64,000 nucleotides of DNA from Halodesulfovibrio sp. MK-HDV (GTDB lineage Bacteria; Desulfobacterota; Desulfovibrionia; Desulfovibrionales; Desulfovibrionaceae). Location of the stretch: contig NZ_WYDS01000015.1 in the NCBI RefSeq assembly GCF_009914765.1, positions 62,001 through 126,000 of the forward strand, in the 5' to 3' direction. A program made the position numbers and the translations under genes. This document shows, piece after piece, positions 6,508 to 49,814 of this stretch (position 1 is its first letter; the number at the start of each line of letters is the position of its first letter). Below the pieces are notes generated by a model. The model was given only the letters and a program-made list of their open reading frames with translations. It was not told the DNA's origin and did no database searches.

Positions 6508-8451
6508 TTAGCGTGCGTCGAGGAGTTTCTGAGCCATTTTCGGCAGGGAGTTAGCCTGCGCGAGCATGGATACTGCAGCGTTTGTCATGATCTGAGTTTT
6601 GTTGAATTCAGTCATTTCTGTTGCTACGTCCACATCAGAGATACGGGACTCAGAAGCCTGCAAGTTTTCTTTCTGAATAGATACGTTTTCGATGGTTGCA
6701 GCGAGACGGTTCTGAGTGGAACCAATTTCTGCACGAATCTCGTCTTTTCTGCGAATAGCGATAGTCAGATTGTCCAATGCTTTTTTAGCATTGTCCTGAG
6801 TTTCGATGTTGTCGCCTGCTTCTTCACCAACACCAAGGGACCTAGCAGTCGCCATGTTGATGTAAGTATCGTAGCTGTCGGTTGACTGGCTACCGGAGCC
6901 GAAGTGTACGTTTACAACAACAAGATCTTCAGATTTAACGTTCAACTGGGTGGAAGATGTCTGAGCAGTCGCACCAGTAGTCATTCCTAGATCCATACCA
7001 TACTGAGTCTTGGTTATGGTAAATGCGCCGCCAGTGTTATTAGAGAATGTATCACGAACCATCTGGTTGTCGCTGTATTCAGCAATGATGCGGAATTCTT
7101 TAACAGACCCTGAAATGTTCAGAGTGTCTCCAGTGGTATTTCCAAGAGATAACTTTTCCCAAGTATTTGTAGTCTCGTTGTAAGCTTCAATGGTGTAATC
7201 TTGAACAGGGGTTCTAACATCCCCGTAGCTGCTTGTTGCAGAGGAATTAACTCTTTCTGCGTTGTTGATTTCACCTGTTTTAGCATCATGTGTAAAATCG
7301 GCTGTAGAAGTAGCAGATCCAGCAGAAAATCCTTCAGCATAGGATAGTGCTGTGTTGGTAACAGAAACGCCAGTCTTTGTTGTGTGATCAAAAGTTTTTG
7401 CAGCGCGGAAACCAGACTCAATTTTAATTCCTGTTGTAGAATCTGCTACGGTTTCAATAGTAAAACCATTCGCAACCTTCGAAACCGTAAACGCACCGGA
7501 GCTGCCAGAGAAGGTGTCAGAGATGACTGATCCATCGGCTTTCTCAATTGTGAGGCGGATAGTAGCGCTTGCTGCTGTAGTCGTGGTAGCAGTGATCGGT
7601 GTCCATGTACCATCAGCGTTAAGTGATTCAGCTGTAACAGTACCAGTGGCATCCGTATAGGTTCCGTTTGCAGCTGAGATGCCTGCCTTTATATCAGTAA
7701 ACCCGCTAAGAAGTTCACCTGTTTTCATGTTCACTGTTGCTACATCTGTAGCAGCTTGGTCAACCGTATTAACTACTTTAGCAATACCTGAACCGGATGT
7801 GTATGTGAAAGCTTTGTCATCAACTGCAGGAGCTGGCATGGCAAAGGTTGTAATTCTATTTGCATCAGTTGTGTTAGCACCAAATAAAGGATCAATTGCA
7901 GTAAGTGACTCTAGGGTAGCTGCGCCTTCTTTACTCCAAGTTTCGGTATTGCCATCTTCATTAACTTTTATAGCGTCTTGCGTCCGAGTGCTTGAAGCGA
8001 CACTATTTTCCACTTCAATGTCCTGACCGGAACCAGCGAGTAATTTTCTGCTGTTGAAATCAGTATCTTGCGCGATACGTGTGATTTCTTTAGCCATGAG
8101 TTGATATTCTTGGTTGATCATTTTACGCTGAACGTCGGTGTAAGTACCGGTAGCTGCCTGTTCGGCAAGTTCTTTCATGCGGATGAGTTTGGCATCGATA
8201 ACGCCAAGGCCACCATCAGCAGTTTGGATCATTGAGATACCGTCGTTTGCGTTGCGCAGGCCCTGACCAAGGGTTTTAATATCTGCACGCATCAGCTCGC
8301 GCATTGCGAGGCCAGCAGCATCGTCAGCTGCGGTGCCAACGCGAAGTCCTGAAGAGAGTCTACGGGTAGATGTTGCGAGTTTACCGTAAGAGTCGTTCAG
8401 GTTGCGGGTTGCGTTCATTGCCATCAAATTGTGATTAATAACTAAAGACAT
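6508..8451 (-). CDS. Flagellin C, long variable domain
   Basis: Filament subunit of 647 residues, paralogous to flagellin B by tandem duplication. The first ~170 residues differ from B at only a few positions, and the C-terminal ~200 are also nearly identical. Between them the sequences diverge. C also has two modules of the VISDTF/VRDTFSNN type, each preceded by a Trp-containing strand (WTPITA, WEKLSL). The start is MSLVINHN after GGAGG. It has its own sigma-54 promoter and terminator, so it can be expressed independently of B. Gene conversion between B and C could explain why the ends stay identical while the centres drift (inference). Confidence 0.95.
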   Translation of the reverse strand: MSLVINHNLMAMNATRNLNDSYGKLATSTRRLSSGLRVGTAADDAAGLAMRELMRADIKTLGQGLRNANDGISMIQTADGGLGVIDAKLIRMKELAEQAATGTYTDVQRKMINQEYQLMAKEITRIAQDTDFNSRKLLAGSGQDIEVENSVASSTRTQDAIKVNEDGNTETWSKEGAATLESLTAIDPLFGANTTDANRITTFAMPAPAVDDKAFTYTSGSGIAKVVNTVDQAATDVATVNMKTGELLSGFTDIKAGISAANGTYTDATGTVTAESLNADGTWTPITATTTTAASATIRLTIEKADGSVISDTFSGSSGAFTVSKVANGFTIETVADSTTGIKIESGFRAAKTFDHTTKTGVSVTNTALSYAEGFSAGSATSTADFTHDAKTGEINNAERVNSSATSSYGDVRTPVQDYTIEAYNETTNTWEKLSLGNTTGDTLNISGSVKEFRIIAEYSDNQMVRDTFSNNTGGAFTITKTQYGMDLGMTTGATAQTSSTQLNVKSEDLVVVNVHFGSGSQSTDSYDTYINMATARSLGVGEEAGDNIETQDNAKKALDNLTIAIRRKDEIRAEIGSTQNRLAATIENVSIQKENLQASESRISDVDVATEMTEFNKTQIMTNAAVSMLAQANSLPKMAQKLLDAR

Positions 8452-8487
8452 ATTGTATAACCTCCATGTTGTACTGCTAGATAAATA

Positions 8488-8502
8488 GCAATGGAGGTGC
8501 CA
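8488..8502 (-). promoter_or_regulatory. Sigma-54 promoter of flagellin C
   Basis: The minus strand reads TGGCAC-CTCCA-TTGC, identical to the flagellin B promoter and a perfect -24/-12 match. The predicted start is near 8476, about 25 bases before the ATG. Confidence 0.85.
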
Positions 8503-8837
8503 AGTTAAAAAAAAATCAATCTAAACAGTGTGTTAATGTTTTATAAAGAAAAATTAAGTCGTTCTTAATAAAGAATTTAGGTCATTCTTTCCTTATAATT
8601 TGGACAGTGAGCCTATATATTCTAGTAAGCTGGCAGAATTTGCAGGGTGGCAGAAGTGGAAATAGTTGTGGGGAGATGGTAATAAAGTACCTGTTGGTGA
8701 TGATCTGTGCTCTGTCATAATCGCTTTAGAATGGAGAAAATGCCGACTGGGTTGACAGATAAAGATAGTGTGCAGGCTTGTATTGAGAGGATTGATTGTA
8801 TATTGCGTACGGCTAATCTGACCCTATCGTATTTAAA
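8503..8837. other. Region upstream of flagellin C
   Basis: The first ~150 bases are the second copy of the duplicated flagellin upstream region. The remainder to the fliK terminator shows no coding pattern or obvious regulatory motif. Confidence 0.5.
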
Positions 8838-8874
8838 CAAAAAAACGGCAGACTTTGCAGTCTGCCGTTTTTTG
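8838..8874 (-). terminator. Terminator of fliK
   Basis: The stem AACGGCAGACT/AGTCTGCCGTT carries poly-A and poly-T flanks. It lies directly after the stop of fliK in the minus direction. Confidence 0.85.
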
Positions 8875-8887
8875 CTTTGTCGTATTG

Positions 8888-10504
8888 CTAGGCAACAAGA
8901 TACAGCCCACTTTGCGAGCTTGCTGATTGCTGTTCAAGAGTGTTGCCGTTGATCAGATCTTCTTTTGTATCTTTGAGCTGGCGGAACTGCTGTTTAGCCA
9001 TGAAGCGCTGCTGTGCTTCCTGTTGCGCATTGTGCTGTTCTGCGTCATTCCACCCTTGATCATTAAGGTGGTTCTGAGTGCCACTCTGTACATCCAACTT
9101 TTCAACTTTTAATCCATGTGCTTCCAGAGAAGCACGAAGGGTATGCATGTTTTCTTGTACTGCTTTGGCAGCTTCAGGATTTTCTGTACGGATGCTTGCG
9201 GCAACTTCGCCATTTTTAGTTGATACCAACACTGTTAATGGTCCGAGATCGGCAGCATCAATTTTCAAAGAGAGTTGACTGACGCCACTACGAAGGGATC
9301 TGAATACTCCGTTCTGAATCTGCTCCAGAATCGTTGCATTTGTCTGCTTCATAGAAACGTTTTGATTAAGAAGATCAGTCATTGTTGCCGTAGTGGATTG
9401 TCCTAAGGAGCCAGGATCTGCCACTACAATATTATTAAAGAAATTCATCCATGTGTTGCCAGTGCCGTTCTGGTTGCTGTTCGGTGAGGAGTCTGCATCG
9501 GAACCAGCTGACCCTGCACCAGCAGCGCCTGCAACTGCAGCAGCAGTGGCGGTAGCCTGTCCGTTCTGCGTATCAGCAGTATTTGCTGTAGGCTGTGCCT
9601 GCGTTGTGCTTTCTTTGCTGTTGACACTTTGCATGAAGCCGAGACTTTTTTCAGTCGCCTGATCAGCCCGTAAAATTTGTGCGGCACTTTCTTCTTTTGT
9701 GGCATGGATACCTGAAGAAGCCTTATCACTATTTTCAATGGCCTTTGCTATCAGAGGATTTAGCTGCTGCTTAATCTCTTCAAGTAGTTTTTCGCCTGTG
9801 GCGCTCTGCGCATCTATAGAAGAATCAAGTAGGGCAGCAAGCTGTTTTAAATCAGTGCTGTTCATTGTGCTGTTAGGGCCGGTGACCATGCCTTTAAGCT
9901 TGGCAAGCGTATTGCTGTCGAGCTGAAGCCCTTTACCAAGAGCAAGTAACTCTTCCTCGGTAATGGCTAGCTCAGTAGTGCCGTCTGCGTTCTTCAATAT
10001 ATCAGAGATACTGTTCCAGGCTTTATCAGTTTTACCTGCCTGAAGATCTTTGAGAATGTCGTGTGTCTGAGTTGGGTCAACTCCGGCTTGCTGCAAGAAA
10101 GATGAAATACGATTCTGCGCATCAGGAGAGAGCGTGTCGACCTCGGGCTTGAATTCAAACTTTGCAGTCTGTTCAAGAATACCGAAAAGGCTATCCCATG
10201 TAAGGGACTGATCTTCGGCCTGTTCTTGTAAACGTTCAAGCGTTTCTTTTTGAACTCCAGCTTTTTCAAGCTTCTTTTCAATAGCGCTAAAATCGTCTGC
10301 ACTGATAGGAAGTTTTTTGATCGAGGCGACTTCGTCGTTGACCGACTGTCTTACTTTCTCTTTAGCCTGAGTGTAGTTGTCACGATACTTAGCACTGTTC
10401 TTTTGAACGGTGTCAAAGATAGCGTCGAAATCAGTTCCTGCGGAACTGTTCGTCGTAATTCTACTAACCTGTTTGGCTAGATATGCAGTAGGCGAAATTT
10501 GCAT
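8888..10504 (-). CDS. fliK: Flagellar hook-length control protein FliK
   Basis: Molecular ruler that is secreted during hook growth and switches the export gate to filament substrates. The 538-residue protein has a low-complexity, Gln/Ala/Ser-rich N-terminal and middle part, including a linker near 300-345. The C-terminal hook domain (about 400-475) contains LSLKIDAADLGPLTVLV and RASLEAHGL, the family hallmark. A Gln-rich tail follows. An open frame extends to 10546, but AAGGAGT at 10511-10517 precedes two ATGs (10507 and 10504); 10504 has the better spacing. It sits between the flagellins and motAB on the same strand with its own terminator. Confidence 0.9.
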   Translation of the reverse strand: MQISPTAYLAKQVSRITTNSSAGTDFDAIFDTVQKNSAKYRDNYTQAKEKVRQSVNDEVASIKKLPISADDFSAIEKKLEKAGVQKETLERLQEQAEDQSLTWDSLFGILEQTAKFEFKPEVDTLSPDAQNRISSFLQQAGVDPTQTHDILKDLQAGKTDKAWNSISDILKNADGTTELAITEEELLALGKGLQLDSNTLAKLKGMVTGPNSTMNSTDLKQLAALLDSSIDAQSATGEKLLEEIKQQLNPLIAKAIENSDKASSGIHATKEESAAQILRADQATEKSLGFMQSVNSKESTTQAQPTANTADTQNGQATATAAAVAGAAGAGSAGSDADSSPNSNQNGTGNTWMNFFNNIVVADPGSLGQSTTATMTDLLNQNVSMKQTNATILEQIQNGVFRSLRSGVSQLSLKIDAADLGPLTVLVSTKNGEVAASIRTENPEAAKAVQENMHTLRASLEAHGLKVEKLDVQSGTQNHLNDQGWNDAEQHNAQQEAQQRFMAKQQFRQLKDTKEDLINGNTLEQQSASSQSGLYLVA

Positions 10505-10761: not shown

Positions 10762-11502
10762 TTACCAGCTTTTGTCTTGAGGACGGTGAATGTAGAACTC
10801 CATCCTGTTATTAAGCTTTTTATTTTCTCTTGTAGTGTTTGGCAATAACGGACGTGAATCTGCATAACCAACAGCCTTCAGACGTGATGCTGGAAGCTCG
10901 GAACGTGCCATGACCGCACGTAATAAAGCCGCAGCACGGGCTGAGGAAAGCTCCCAATTTGTCGGGTATGCTTCTGTCTCTTCCACTGTATTGGAAGTAT
11001 GCCCGCGGACCACCATATTAACGGTGTGTTGTTTCAAAATGTTGATAGCGCCATCCAGTAGCTTTTCACTTCCCGGTTTCAGACTAGCAGAAGCGGGTCC
11101 AAAAAAGTTTGTTACTGGAATACGGAGAATAAGCCCTTTATTATCCGCTGTTACTGTTGCCACTTTGTGTAGAGATGGGTCTTCGAGCATATAGCTTTTA
11201 ATTTCAAGCAACATCCCCAAAATCATCTGGTCTTCTTTTTTAAGCTTAACGTCTGAGCGTTCAAATTTTTCTGGTGAAAATGCTGCAAAGTTTGCCTTTT
11301 GTCGTTTTACCTGAATACCGAATGCATTCTTAACAGAGCCAGCAAGTGTTTTAAACTTATTAGCATCCTGCTGTGCAAACGAGAGCAAAAGAACGAAGAA
11401 GCAAAGGAGCAGTGTCACAAGGTCTGCAAAAGTAGCCATCCAAAGTGGTAGCCCTTCTTCTGCTGGTGGTTCCCCCCCACCGCGTTTTCGAGAATCAGCC
11501 AT
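10762..11502 (-). CDS. motB: Flagellar motor stator protein MotB
   Basis: Stator subunit that forms the ion channel with MotA and anchors it to peptidoglycan. Of 246 residues, a short cytoplasmic N-terminus precedes one membrane helix (about 21-43). That helix has the essential channel aspartate at D27 in MATFADLVTLLL. The periplasmic half carries an OmpA-like peptidoglycan-binding domain (about 125-245), including VVRGHTSNT and the NRMEFYI end. The start follows AGGA with eight bases spacing. The motA stop lies one base upstream, so the two are translated together. The sequence alone does not say whether the motor uses protons or sodium. Confidence 0.93.
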   Translation of the reverse strand: MADSRKRGGGEPPAEEGLPLWMATFADLVTLLLCFFVLLLSFAQQDANKFKTLAGSVKNAFGIQVKRQKANFAAFSPEKFERSDVKLKKEDQMILGMLLEIKSYMLEDPSLHKVATVTADNKGLILRIPVTNFFGPASASLKPGSEKLLDGAINILKQHTVNMVVRGHTSNTVEETEAYPTNWELSSARAAALLRAVMARSELPASRLKAVGYADSRPLLPNTTRENKKLNNRMEFYIHRPQDKSW

Positions 11503-11503
11503 A

Positions 11504-12256
11504 CTATCGTTCCTGACGTTTTGACGGCGGAAGGAAGGAGTTTAGTTTCTCTCTTACGATATTCGGGTGTTCGCCATTTAAAATGGAAAGCACACCTTCA
11601 GTCATCAGTTCCATGTTCATGGCTTCTTCATTGGAGCGTTCTTCCAGCTTTTTCGCCAGCGGGAGGAATATGCAGTTAGCCAAAATTGCGCCATAAAAAG
11701 TTGTAAGCAGCGCAACCGCCATAGCAGGTCCAATAGAAGACGGGTCATCAAGCGCCTGAAGCATTCGTACCAGACCGATGAGTGTACCGATCATGCCGAA
11801 TGCCGGAGCCATGTTGCCCATACCTTTGAATACTTCCTGACCAGTGCGGTGACGCTTCTTCATGATATCTACGTCGATCTCCATAACGGAGCGGATAAGC
11901 GACTCTTCTGTACCATCCGCAACAAGGAGAACACCGCGTTTTAAAAATTCATTGTCGATACTGACTTTTTCAAGCGAAACAAGGCTTTCTTTACGTGCCC
12001 GTTCTGCAAGGTCGATAACGATGTCGATAGAATCCATAGGGTCTGGAGGCTTAGAGAAAAAAGCCTTCATGCCTACTTTCATTGAGCCCAGCACAGTGCC
12101 GAGCGGGAACATGATGAAAGCTACAGCAATGGTACCACCAAATACAACGAGCATTGAAGGTACGTCGATAAAACCTGCAGGACTGCCACCGACAGCGATA
12201 GCACCGACGATAAGTGCTAATGCGCCGAATAGGCCGATAATTGTTGCTATGTCCAT
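11504..12256 (-). CDS. motA: Flagellar motor stator protein MotA
   Basis: Stator membrane protein that couples ion flow to rotor torque. The 250 residues show the MotA/TolQ/ExbB pattern: two N-terminal helices (ATIIGLFGALALIVGAIAVGG, PSMLVVFGGTIAVAFIMFP), a cytoplasmic loop, and two C-terminal helices (APAFGMIGTLIGLVRML, MAVALLTTFYGAILANCIFLP). The latter two are the classic proline/glycine-rich MotA motifs. A longer open frame to 12301 exists, but family similarity begins at MDIATI, so ATG 12256 is chosen; its ribosome site is weak (AAGAAG). The stop of FapA lies four bases upstream when FapA's frameshift is corrected, pointing to translational coupling. Confidence 0.93.
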   Translation of the reverse strand: MDIATIIGLFGALALIVGAIAVGGSPAGFIDVPSMLVVFGGTIAVAFIMFPLGTVLGSMKVGMKAFFSKPPDPMDSIDIVIDLAERARKESLVSLEKVSIDNEFLKRGVLLVADGTEESLIRSVMEIDVDIMKKRHRTGQEVFKGMGNMAPAFGMIGTLIGLVRMLQALDDPSSIGPAMAVALLTTFYGAILANCIFLPLAKKLEERSNEEAMNMELMTEGVLSILNGEHPNIVREKLNSFLPPSKRQER

Positions 12257-12260
12257 GTAA

Positions 12261-13377
12261 TTACTTCTTAATAATTGCTGGTGATGTAAAGCGTAGTTCA
12301 CCGTCTCGTAAACTGATAGCTACATTTTCCAGATAATCGTTAATTTTTGTGTAGTGCCCGCCGATACTGATATCCACTCCTGGGCGGATTGTACCCGGCA
12401 CGATGACACGGCAAAGTTCTGAGTTTGCGTTTTTTTTTCATTAATTTCATAATGCGCCGCTGTTCTCTGCGTAGTGACCCCATTCGTTTCTCTTCAAATT
12501 CGAGTTTCTCACGGGTTTCAGTACGATGAAGTTCACTTTTAGCGCTGGTCTTCAGTAGCTGCTTAATGGTTTCATCAACCGTTTCTATCTTATCCTCAAT
12601 GCACTCAAGCTTTCTCATTAGAGCCGGAGGATAGCCCATTATGATGGACGTAGGTGTGTTGATGCCGCCACCAAGCTGTTCGCCAACATATACCATGTTG
12701 TTGGCGTAAATCTTACCGCCTTGTAGCCTGTCTTTGACGATAAGTGAGCCGTTTAGTGACATTTTTGTGTGAAGAGATGACCCTTCAATATAAATGTCGT
12801 TACCTGCCTGCAGGTCGCAATTTTCACAGAAACCAGCTCGAATATTGCTGCCTGCATCGATGACACAGGATTTAGCGCCCTTAATCCCTCTTTCTGCAGT
12901 GAACGCATCTAACGTACGAATTGTTGCACCTTCCACAATATCTTTTGCCAGAATATTACGTGCCTGCAGCTCAAAACCCGTGCGCACTGTTCCGTGAACA
13001 CAAAGATCGTTTACGTAGATAACGTTCCCTGTGCTGAAGTTTACATCACCATGAATATTCAACAGTTTTTTAACTGAAATGAGATCTTCGTGGTAAAAAA
13101 CATATCCGTTTTGTGCGGCAAGAAGTTGTTGGCTGTTTTCTGGGTTCACTACCGTATTAGGCCCTGCAGGAAGTACGGGTGAATCAAAAATAAATTGTGG
13201 ATCAAGAAATTCAGTGTTTTCCGGTGTTGGTACGAACTCGGCAATAATCTGACCGGAAATAACGTTCTGTACGTATCCAAGGCAATGGTGATCGACACGA
13301 CCGCGAGATACGGCAGCTGGTGAGAGCTTTGTGTGATTGAAAAAGGGATCGAAGTGGTGGCGTAAATAGTATGTCAT
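12261..13377 (-). CDS. FapA-family (DUF342) protein, frame broken at A9
   Basis: A polymer-forming beta-helix protein of the FapA/DUF342 family, a group linked in Vibrio to flagellar assembly and polar localisation. The first 313 codons show repeated strands (NGSLIVKDRLQGGKIYANN, DIYIEGSSL) and then a coiled coil (about 260-312). At a run of nine A (coding strand of 12430-12438) the frame drifts into about 33 unrelated codons ending near 12340. Dropping one A restores a typical FapA tail: VIVPGTIRPGVDISIG, then YTKINDYLEN, ending IIKK with its stop at 12261, four bases before motA. The restored length is 371 residues. The cause may be polymerase slippage, a true mutation or a sequencing error. 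ATG 13377 is the likely start; an upstream in-frame GTG overlaps the STAS stop. Confidence 0.8.
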
Positions 13378-16647: not shown

Positions 16648-17526
16648 TTACAGCAGACCGGAGTCCACCAGAACCGCTTTAAGTTTTTTTAAGTTTTCGT
16701 CAGCAAGTGGCACCATAGGCAGTCTGAAATCTGTATCCATTTTGCCCTGCAAAGCAAGTGCAGTTTTAACTGGAATAGGGTTAGACTCCATAAACATAGC
16801 TCTGTTCAGTGGCTGCATTTCAAAATGCAGTTTACGTGCTGTCGAAATGTCGCCTTCGTTCCATGCGTTGCATAGACTTGCCATTTTGTTAGGCAGAAGG
16901 TTGGACACTACGGAGATAACACCGGCACCACCAATTGAGAGAAGTGGCAGCAGGGTGAAGTCATCGCCGGAGAGCACGTTAAGGGAAGCGCCGCACTGTT
17001 CAATGAGGTCAGAAACCTGAATAAGGTTGCCAGTAGCTTCTTTGATACCAACGATCTGAGGAATATCTTTATGCAAACGCGCAACAGTTGAAGGCATAAT
17101 GTTGCTGCCGGTTCTACCCGGAACATTATAGAGCACCATAGGCATGCTGATTGTGTCAGCAATATATTTGAAGTGCTGGTAAATGCCTTCCTGAGTCGGT
17201 TTGTTGTAGTAAGGGCTTATGAGAAGAACGCCGTCCGCACCTGCTTCTTTAGCAAACTGGGTGAGGTGGACAGCCTCTTTTGTGTTGTTGGAACCGGCAC
17301 CGGCGAGAACCGGCACGCGCTTGTTTGCCTGATCTACACAGATTCGGATGGCTTCTTTGTGCTCATCATGGGTAAGAGTCGCAGATTCGCCAGTGGTGCC
17401 GCACGGTACTAAACCGTGGATGCCTTCAGTAATCTGCCATTCAATGTGTGCACGAAAGCGGTCTTCGTCAATTTTGCCATCTTGAAATGGAGTAACCAGT
17501 GCAGTATAGGCTCCGGAAAAATTCAT
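16648..17526 (-). CDS. dapA: 4-hydroxy-tetrahydrodipicolinate synthase
   Basis: Condenses pyruvate with aspartate semialdehyde, the first committed step of lysine and diaminopimelate synthesis. The 292-residue TIM barrel has the Schiff-base lysine K162 (VGIKEATGN), Tyr133 (LYNVPGRTG) and the substrate loop CGTTGESATL (42-51), all as in active enzymes. GAGGAGGC-type sequence precedes the ATG. dapF lies upstream with a 48-base gap on the same strand, so dapF-dapA is a likely lysine/peptidoglycan operon. Confidence 0.96.
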   Translation of the reverse strand: MNFSGAYTALVTPFQDGKIDEDRFRAHIEWQITEGIHGLVPCGTTGESATLTHDEHKEAIRICVDQANKRVPVLAGAGSNNTKEAVHLTQFAKEAGADGVLLISPYYNKPTQEGIYQHFKYIADTISMPMVLYNVPGRTGSNIMPSTVARLHKDIPQIVGIKEATGNLIQVSDLIEQCGASLNVLSGDDFTLLPLLSIGGAGVISVVSNLLPNKMASLCNAWNEGDISTARKLHFEMQPLNRAMFMESNPIPVKTALALQGKMDTDFRLPMVPLADENLKKLKAVLVDSGLL

Positions 17527-17574
17527 ATAGCCTCCTCATGTGGGCAAAGTGCTGCCCGCAGCGGGTTTGTAGTG

Positions 17575-18417
17575 TTAGTCTAACGTAAGTCCGAGTGATT
17601 CAAGCACAGCACTGCCGGAGTAAATAACAAGCGCTTTACCCTTTAAGAAAACGCTCTTGCCTTCAATGGATATGCTCAGGATTTCTCCGCCGGAAGACTT
17701 TACACGTACATTAGTGCCGGTCAGCCCAAGGGCGTTTGCTACAACAACGCCAGCTACAGCACCAGTACCGCAGGCAAAAGTTTCATCTTCAACGCCGCGT
17801 TCGTACGTGCGAAGATGTACGTTTTCGCGGTCAATAACACTCATAAAGTTCGCATTAGTACCAGCAGGGGAAAACACATCATGGTAACGAACAAGAGCAC
17901 CAAGCTCTTTTACGTTAAGCGCAGATGCATCTTCTGCAATGTATACAGCATGCGGAACACCGGTGTTAACGAAATGGATTTCGTTGTCACCGTCTTTCAG
18001 AGTAATTGGTTTGTTTAATTCTAGTCCTAAAGGCGGGGTGAGTTCAACTTTGATCTCACCATCGTCGCAAAATTCTGCGCGAATTGGACCTGCGTCTGTT
18101 CCAAAGGTGTGAACAGGACCAGCAAGGCCGATCTGGACTGCAAGCTTGGCAGCACAACGCGATGCGTTGCCGCACATCTCTGCTCGGGAACCGTCTGCAT
18201 TGTAAAAATGCCAGCGGTAGTCAAGAGTGGTGTCGTCTGATTCTTCTAAGAAAACTAGGCCGTCTGCGCCAACGCCAAATGCGCGGCGGCAGATTTTTTG
18301 AGCCCACTCACTCATATGCGAAACAGGCACGTTGTATTCCCGATTGTCAATGAACACAAAGTCATTGCCGCAGCCCTGCATTTTAAAAATAGCTACGTGA
18401 TCCATAGTAGGATTCAT
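17575..18417 (-). CDS. dapF: Diaminopimelate epimerase
   Basis: Interconverts LL- and meso-diaminopimelate for lysine and cell-wall synthesis. Both catalytic cysteines are present: C82 in EMCGNASRCAA and C216 in FACGTGAVAG. The substrate motifs GCGNDF (15-20) and VGADGLVF are intact. The 280-residue length is normal. AGGAG five bases before ATG 18417 supports this start over the second Met (residue 5). It precedes dapA on the same strand. Confidence 0.95.
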   Translation of the reverse strand: MNPTMDHVAIFKMQGCGNDFVFIDNREYNVPVSHMSEWAQKICRRAFGVGADGLVFLEESDDTTLDYRWHFYNADGSRAEMCGNASRCAAKLAVQIGLAGPVHTFGTDAGPIRAEFCDDGEIKVELTPPLGLELNKPITLKDGDNEIHFVNTGVPHAVYIAEDASALNVKELGALVRYHDVFSPAGTNANFMSVIDRENVHLRTYERGVEDETFACGTGAVAGVVVANALGLTGTNVRVKSSGGEILSISIEGKSVFLKGKALVIYSGSAVLESLGLTLD

Positions 18418-18951
18418 GTGAACTCCTGGTGCCGGCAGAACGTGCCCGTGTCTACCGCGTCACCCAAACTAAAAACATTACGTATGATTTTTCGTACCGG
18501 TAAAGCAAATACAGGTGCAAAAAAATGGATGAAAAAACTTTCATCATCAAATCAATATAGTGTGTGGAAGGTTGCCCGATGGTGTGCAACATCAAGTTCC
18601 TTCGTTTATCTACTCCCTATGATTCTGCTGTACAAAAGGGAGAAGGTCAACCCGTTACCCGCTAGAGATGAAAAATGTTTTATCACATACACATATTAAT
18701 CAAAGCCTCTAACCAATTATCAAGAGCCGTACTTGTAGTATTCGCTTTTTCTGTTTTGGCTACTTATTCTCTTAGGCTAAAGAAGGGAGAATCATCTATG
18801 GAGAAGGCGGAGTCATTTTCTTGCTGAATGTGCAGGTTGAGGAGGGAGAGGTGGAGCCTCAAAGGCTTTTTAAAGGCTTAAACGTGGAAAGTGATGAGGA
18901 GATATAGAAGAATGGTTTTTACATGTCGTAAACGCTGTTCATAGGGCAAAA
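18418..18951. other. Intergenic region upstream of dapF
   Basis: About 530 bases between the HU terminator and dapF. No credible gene is seen. A short open stretch (about 18787-18906, reading GEGGVIFLLNVQVEEGE) has no good start codon and no recognisable similarity. The dapF promoter must lie here, but I cannot pick a convincing one. Confidence 0.4.
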
Positions 18952-43768: not shown

Positions 43769-43800
43769 AAAGACGCCCCTTTCGGGGCGTCTTTTTTTTT
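43769..43800 (+). terminator. Terminator of secDF
   Basis: AAGACGCCCC-TTTC-GGGGCGTCTT is followed by a nine-base T-run, 25 bases past secF. Confidence 0.92.
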
Positions 43801-48584: not shown

Positions 48585-49814
48585 ATGGATCAGCCGATAA
48601 ATCCGGTACAACAAGTAGATTTTGCATTCTACGTTATCTTTGGAATATCCATCGTACTCCTGTTCGGAATTACGCTGGTGGCGCTGTTTATGGTGTACCG
48701 TTATCACCATGAGCGGCATCCTGTTGCATCTAAATTAAAAGATAATGTATGGCTCGAAATTATATGGGTACTGCTGCCGTCTCTGCTTGTTATCTCCATG
48801 TTCTACTATGGCTGGATTGGATTTAAAGCACTGCGTTCTGTACCGGATGGTGCAATGGAGGTGCAGGTTGTAGGGCGCATGTTCTCGTGGAGCTTTGAAT
48901 ATCCGGACGGCAAGCGAAGCAAGGTTTTGTATGTTCCTGTAGGTACGCCAATACGTCTGAATATTACATCTGACGATGTTATTCATAGCCTATATATTCC
49001 GGCATTCAGAATAAAAATGGATGCTGTACCGGGGATGGAAACATATGCATGGTTCGATCCGAGGACATTGGGTAGTTACGATATTTTATGCTCTGAATAC
49101 TGCGGCATTAAGCATGCGAATATGCTTTCCACGGTTGAAGTGGTGAGCAGGGAAGATTATGAAAAATGGCTGAAAAGTGAATCCAAAGCACAGCAAACGG
49201 CGGTTGCTCTGTTTGAAAACTACGGCTGTACAGGTTGCCACTCTCTGGACGGCAGCAGAGGTTCAGGCCCGTCATTGCTTAACCTGTTCGGCACAAAGCA
49301 GGTTGTTGTAGAACCTGATGGTAACGAAAAGACCATCGTCGTTGACAAGAAATATTTACGAGAGGCCATCTATGAGCCGAACAAGTCAATAACCAAAGGG
49401 TATCCCGCAGTTATGCCTTCCTACAAAGGGGAGGTGTCTGAAGATGATCTTGCGCTTATGATCGGGTGGATGACCGGAGAGATTGAAAAAAAAACGGACG
49501 GGAAAGTGCTGTTGGAAGATAACGGCTGCTTATCCTGCCATTCAACAGATGGTTCCATAATTGAAGCACCAACCCTGAAAGGCATTTGGGGTAAGCGCCT
49601 CCTGTTACAGCAGGGCGGAGTTAGTATCCGCAAAAAAATGGACAGGGCAGTTCTGGAACAAATTTTACGGAATCCGGAAACTGTGCGCGACGGAAGCTGG
49701 AAAGTCATGATGCCAGCGTATGACACCTTAACGCCTGACGAGATAACCGCCATTGCGGAGTACTTGAAGACGTTAACGGCTGATGAAGATCGTAAAAAAA
49801 GTGACAAACAATAA
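48585..49814 (+). CDS. ctaC: Cytochrome c oxidase subunit II with two fused cytochrome c domains
   Basis: Electron-entry subunit of 409 residues. Two N-terminal helices (about 12-38 and 56-76) lead to the periplasmic cupredoxin domain. It has all CuA ligands: His134 (VIHSL), Cys169, Glu171, Cys173, His177 and Met180 in CSEYCGIKHANM. Two c-type heme domains follow, with CTGCH (215-219) and CLSCH (316-320) and distal Met candidates in VMPSY and MMPAY. The double fusion makes this a caa3/cco-like oxidase able to take electrons from a small cytochrome. The subunit order differs from the common C-D-E order: it comes after subunits I, III and IV. Confidence 0.93.
   Translation: MDQPINPVQQVDFAFYVIFGISIVLLFGITLVALFMVYRYHHERHPVASKLKDNVWLEIIWVLLPSLLVISMFYYGWIGFKALRSVPDGAMEVQVVGRMFSWSFEYPDGKRSKVLYVPVGTPIRLNITSDDVIHSLYIPAFRIKMDAVPGMETYAWFDPRTLGSYDILCSEYCGIKHANMLSTVEVVSREDYEKWLKSESKAQQTAVALFENYGCTGCHSLDGSRGSGPSLLNLFGTKQVVVEPDGNEKTIVVDKKYLREAIYEPNKSITKGYPAVMPSYKGEVSEDDLALMIGWMTGEIEKKTDGKVLLEDNGCLSCHSTDGSIIEAPTLKGIWGKRLLLQQGGVSIRKKMDRAVLEQILRNPETVRDGSWKVMMPAYDTLTPDEITAIAEYLKTLTADEDRKKSDKQ

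Follow-up and report, generated by a model that had tools for sequence, protein, structure and literature searches.

In the assembly of Halodesulfovibrio sp. MK-HDV, the fapA gene beside motA loses its frame at a tract of nine As, and the ninth A is very probably an error made in base calling or in the consensus. Of the explanations considered, sequencing error is by far the best supported, because rpsD, ftsZ, mraY and murD likewise carry frame-breaking single-base changes in this assembly. The text at fapA is broken, the relatives are intact and similar breaks are many; an error at the fapA base itself most probably accounts for this. A sequence-only reading of the window (the whole stretch of 64,000 nucleotides that was analysed, to which positions refer unless a contig is named) had listed sequencing error as an alternative to polymerase slippage, and it is this alternative that the broken essential genes favour. 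Eight As are most likely the true count in the chromosome, as in the two closest relatives sampled (G005 and G009), and fapA would be an ordinary intact gene of ~371 codons, ending in a conserved VPGxIRPGVxISIG-type tail with its stop 4 nt before motA. The fapA locus is not special within the MK-HDV assembly, where frame breaks extend to ribosomal, cell-wall and cell-division genes. Pseudogene, split-gene or recoding claims made from this assembly need to be checked against the reads.

The fapA reading frame and the A9 run

The upstream part of the broken gene aligns with positions 2-218 of the 272-position Pfam FapA profile (PF03961, flagellar assembly protein A; E 1.9e-36), and the FapA beta-solenoid model is matched at 126.6 bits for a cut-off of 31, in agreement with the family first proposed from the letters. 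The gene lies on the minus strand and extends from ~12261 to 13377 (ATG at 13375-13377) or, with a GTG start, to 13392. Next to it are motA (PF01618; open frame at 11504-12256, minus strand) and, downstream of motA, motB (PF13677 and OmpA; open frame at 10762-11502, minus strand); both are recognised by Pfam, as is a STAS-domain gene upstream. Compared with ordinary FapA, the MK-HDV gene is of the same family, beside motA/motB, and shows no difference apart from the one-base anomaly.

This anomaly sits in the minus-strand run of nine As at 12430-12438 (T9 on the plus strand), most probably one base over-called. As the sequence-only reading described, the fapA frame (12343-13377) enters the run and departs, the run encoding exactly three AAA codons behind an ATG (M K K K). 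The out-of-frame stretch that follows (12340-12429, minus strand, outside the Pfam match) is there too, with 29 codons instead of the roughly 33 counted earlier and a stop at 12340-12342. Read from 12437 on the minus strand, the neighbouring frame (12264-12437) gives KKNANSELCRVIVPGTIRPGVDISIGG...IIKK and then a stop at 12261-12263; that this tail is FapA-like, as had been suggested, agrees with the tails of homologues. Taken alone, the 58-aa tail-frame peptide had no Pfam match. Intact orthologues at loci L003 and L004 match the FapA profile over 2-272 of 272, and no single frame of the MK-HDV text carries the domain to the profile end. Four nucleotides separate the tail-frame stop from the motA ATG (12254-12256), also as first read, and this spacing suggests that translation of fapA and motA may be coupled. 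The span originally given for the gene holds except for its start coordinate, 12255, which falls in the motA start, fapA beginning at ~12261. Minus-one ribosomal frameshifting at A9 was rejected because, judged from the frames, it would enter the wrong one.

The A9 string is not rare genome-wide, occurring 119 times on the forward and 142 times on the reverse strand of 4.17 Mb when overlapping places are counted. Within conserved genes, A/T runs of at least nine bases are rare: the 313 kb of conserved coding sequence contain four. The window holds three other nine-base A/T runs (8507-8515, 43792-43800 and 49486-49494), none of which lies inside a G005-matched gene in the run test described below.

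fapA and its A-run in relatives

Of the 59 genomes searched, 44 have a FapA match, MK-HDV among them. Base-level inspection covered 30 loci besides the window's own (29 distinct), taken from the best 30 matches and from a search that gave three named loci, which include both halves of a single gene; matches beyond the best 30 are known from table rows alone, each marked as having no internal stop. FapA of the MAG N3 was inspected over its last 172 residues only, and at L014, L019, L022 and L026, where both strands are stop-free over the match, the plus strand was used and gave the FapA tail. All 29 other inspected homologues have a single open frame through the tail, which is a variant of VPGxIRPGVEISIG, and no conserved frame transition at the fapA run was seen among them. 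In the five closest Halodesulfovibrio, fapA is in frame and its stop lies a few nucleotides ahead of the motA start.

The run itself counts eight As in G005 and G009 (90% and 88% protein identity to MK-HDV, respectively, over the upstream 315 FapA residues) and seven in H. spirochaetisodalis (G008), and it is interrupted in G001 and in MAG N3 (G002), so that the tract conservation expected of a phase-variable locus is not seen. The sequence-only reading had named, as evidence against itself, relatives that all have an intact frame and no A-run; the frame is indeed intact in all, but A-runs are present in three, two with A8 and one with A7. Among the genomes seen, the nine-A state is private to the MK-HDV assembly. 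The A-run derives from ordinary lysine and asparagine codons.

These comparisons bear on the earlier proposal that A9 is real and that RNA polymerase slips on it, in which case a short and a full-length FapA would both be made and motA would still be coupled. The broken tssM gene of Citrobacter rodentium is reportedly rescued by transcriptional slippage. Bacterial polymerase slips on at least seven Ts and on somewhat more As (PMC6260861), and functional transcriptional slippage is known in bacteria, for example in Shigella spa13 (PMC5009743). In the GeneTack survey, conserved position and direction are the basis for grouping frame transitions, and recoding is called by nearby motifs (PMC3711429). 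At fapA, however, the 29 other homologues inspected all keep an unbroken frame, and slippage would have to remove one A from the mRNA (or add two). In the reporter work on E. coli polymerase, deletion rescue reached ~10% with T8, and none was reported on the poly(A) runs examined there, among which nine As were perhaps not included (PMC6260861). Slippage would also not readily account for mraY and murD, described below, where three-base C runs have lost a base. Programmed slippage was therefore rejected, given that no inspected homologue is split and that the direction is unfavourable, and we consider the two-product proposal very improbable.

A9 could also be a real slipped-strand mutation from A8 in the sequenced strain, either derived in culture or a reversible phase-variation state like that of swrA. 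FapA would then be truncated, with the end of the beta-solenoid lost (profile 219-272), and motA translation may drop. The eight-A tract is present in two relatives, and A8 tracts mutate naturally at high rates, motility genes included. The A8 tract of Bacillus subtilis swrA switches at 1e-4 to 1e-5, and the frame is shifted in 15.5% of its orthologues across B. subtilis genomes (PMC12501158; PMC2831843 is a further reference for changes of this kind). Campylobacter flgR and flgS vary at poly-A tracts, and motA of the same genus varies at a short G tract (PMC3928116). The likeness to swrA lies in an eight-A run within a motility-related gene, where a length change loses the frame. Unlike swrA, whose variation is known across many strains and through its phenotype, the broken fapA is seen in a single assembly of one strain, the genomes compared being one per species; its run is not kept by relatives, as the seven-A and interrupted tracts attest, and the off state occurs in none of the 29 other homologues. 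Moreover, essential genes are broken by like changes in the same assembly, so fapA needs no special cause, and a real mutation is unlikely. We hold it decidedly unlikely that A9 is the off state of a slipped-strand fapA switch that also alters motA expression and is perhaps leaky through polymerase slippage. A real A9 would represent a motility switch of an already known kind, and a true slipped-strand switch would mean that motility is phase-variable in a marine sulfate reducer.

Genes broken elsewhere in the assembly

Open reading frames of one genome were searched against the other with tblastn. The comparison covered 131.5 kb of MK-HDV contig C15 (window included) against G005 and G009, and 200 kb each of contigs C1 and C2 against G005. 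Three 20-kb stretches rich in essential genes were taken as a test, given that essential genes should be spared if the breaks are real. In these ~591 kb of the assembly, 15 genes are broken by small length changes, or about one per 40 kb of the examined part.

In the division and cell-wall (dcw) cluster, mraY (~7897-8966), murD (~8980-10277) and ftsZ (~17020-18643), all on contig C21 (locus L142), are split in MK-HDV and intact in G005 and G009, and these are 3 of the 18 ORFs of that stretch. The rpsD gene (~740-1367 on contig C16, locus L144) is the single match in the MK-HDV genome and is split as well: its open frame is 92 aa long, where all 10 of the other genomes compared have 209-219 aa, and its A tract is one base longer than in G005. 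The names of these four genes were checked by Pfam on the gene pieces, and each is broken by a single-base length change. The remaining ribosomal-protein genes near rpsD, and rpoB and rpoC, are apparently open when ORF lists are read by eye. A living cell cannot do without S4, FtsZ, MraY and MurD together. Breaks similar to that in fapA are thus present in genes that cannot be lost, as expected of an assembly error, and since the four are not jointly dispensable, we infer that the text is at fault and not the organism.

Besides fapA, a radical-SAM gene and an AraC-type regulator are broken on C15. The broken genes on C1 are recO, a plsC-like acyltransferase gene, a ccsA-like cytochrome c assembly gene and a RodZ-like gene, and those on C2 encode a YhcH-family protein, an RlmI-like methyltransferase, an S49 peptidase (SppA-like) and a 1156-residue PAS/histidine-kinase sensor. 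Pfam results on the pieces of the C15, C1 and C2 genes are consistent with the family names; more specific names, RlmI and SppA for instance, are presumed. Support from both G009 and G005 or, for rpsD, from the ten-genome comparison exists for nine of the 15 breaks: G009 confirms those in fapA, the radical-SAM gene, recO, the RodZ-like gene and the plsC-like gene, and mraY, murD, ftsZ and rpsD complete the set. The remaining six (AraC, ccsA-like, YhcH, RlmI-like, SppA-like and the 1156-aa sensor) come from the G005 comparison only.

Against G005, 14 of 308 MK-HDV ORFs are broken (3/82, 4/113, 4/95 and 3/18), rpsD having been found separately. The reverse scan with G005 as target gave 1 of 320, and the difference is significant on these hand-curated counts (Fisher p = 0.0004); the denominators are ORFs of at least 80 aa with a best match of at least 50% identity, some doubtful ORFs included. 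With G005 queries, C15 yielded three candidates, all kept; C1 yielded five rows for four genes, and all four genes were kept, the second recO row being an upstream extension and the RodZ-like row being confirmed separately; and the dcw stretch yielded three rows, all kept. Nine rows were obtained for C2: four were kept, one of 442 aa is uncertain and was not counted, and four were dropped as short or upstream-extended ORFs. With G005 as target, nothing was counted among five rows on C15 (fapA itself, three short ORFs and one upstream extension), three on C1 and one in dcw (antisense to ftsZ). For C2, one of six rows was counted (a 982-aa protein), and a tandem-duplicated integrase, the YhcH reciprocal, one short ORF and two upstream extensions were dropped. 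Queries from G009 found 8 of 154 broken in MK-HDV (2/78, 2/19, 1/39 and 3/18), all of them genes already counted. MK-HDV queries on C15 against G009 gave two short ORFs, which were not counted, and G005 against G009 in both directions gave four rows in total, by eye spurious or upstream-extended. The 982-residue sensor-like protein is broken in G005 at ~450 kb of its contig C19 (L136 ~5.0 kb), where an A-run is one base shorter, and it is open in the MK-HDV genome.

The excess of single-base indels in these counts (14/308 versus 1/320) would also fit a mutator strain, or one rich in recent pseudogenes, in which all the breaks are real. This is hardly conceivable: going by what is generally held of their essentiality, no living cell can have lost the whole set of rpsD, ftsZ, mraY and murD. 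The mutS and mutL frames are open, so a null mutator is not evident, missense defects being possible.

Run lengths and kinds of length change

The lesion is one single-base change in 14 of the 15 broken genes, and the ccsA-like gene, with two length changes, is a less clear break. In fapA, recO, the SppA-like gene, ftsZ and rpsD, a G005 A/T run of 5 to 8 is one longer in MK-HDV; in the plsC-like and RodZ-like genes, the A-run also differs from G005 through substitutions. The radical-SAM gene, mraY and murD each have a C or G run, two or three bases long, that is shorter by one, and the other breaks are losses elsewhere or the two gains in the ccsA-like gene. The breaks in the radical-SAM gene, the RlmI-like gene, mraY and murD are losses in short runs, which count against a simple over-calling error and indicate that the errors are not of one kind.

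Within conserved genes, the frame is broken at three of four nine-base A/T runs (fapA, recO and the RodZ-like gene) and at 1 of 14 eight-base runs. The error is therefore not universal, as 13 of the 14 eight-base and one of the four nine-base in-gene runs are in frame, one of the 13 belonging to a short, possibly spurious ORF (C2 segment 12975). This count excludes eight runs located at gene ends, seven of them eight bases long and one ten bases long. An eleven-base run within the uncertain 442-aa gene is in frame across the run.

A comparable case is the genome of Clostridium autoethanogenum DSM 10061, for which 243 discrepancies were reported, more than 90% of them in homopolymers, causing false frameshifts (PMC4687164). 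Both assemblies show many single-base length differences, mostly in homopolymers, that break needed genes. The C. autoethanogenum errors are PacBio under-calls that were checked with Illumina and Sanger sequencing (PMC4687164), whereas in MK-HDV A/T tracts are mostly one too long and some short tracts one too short, and the case for error there is one of sequence comparison.

Two of the broken genes, recO and the RodZ-like gene, adjoin each other on C1 at ~60.5-62.2 kb (L087 ~549-2238), each broken at a nine-base A/T run. In the ccsA-like gene, at ~75.4 kb of the same contig (L087 ~15.4 kb), the two extra bases relative to G005 lie ~60 nt apart, at look-alike T-rich sites.
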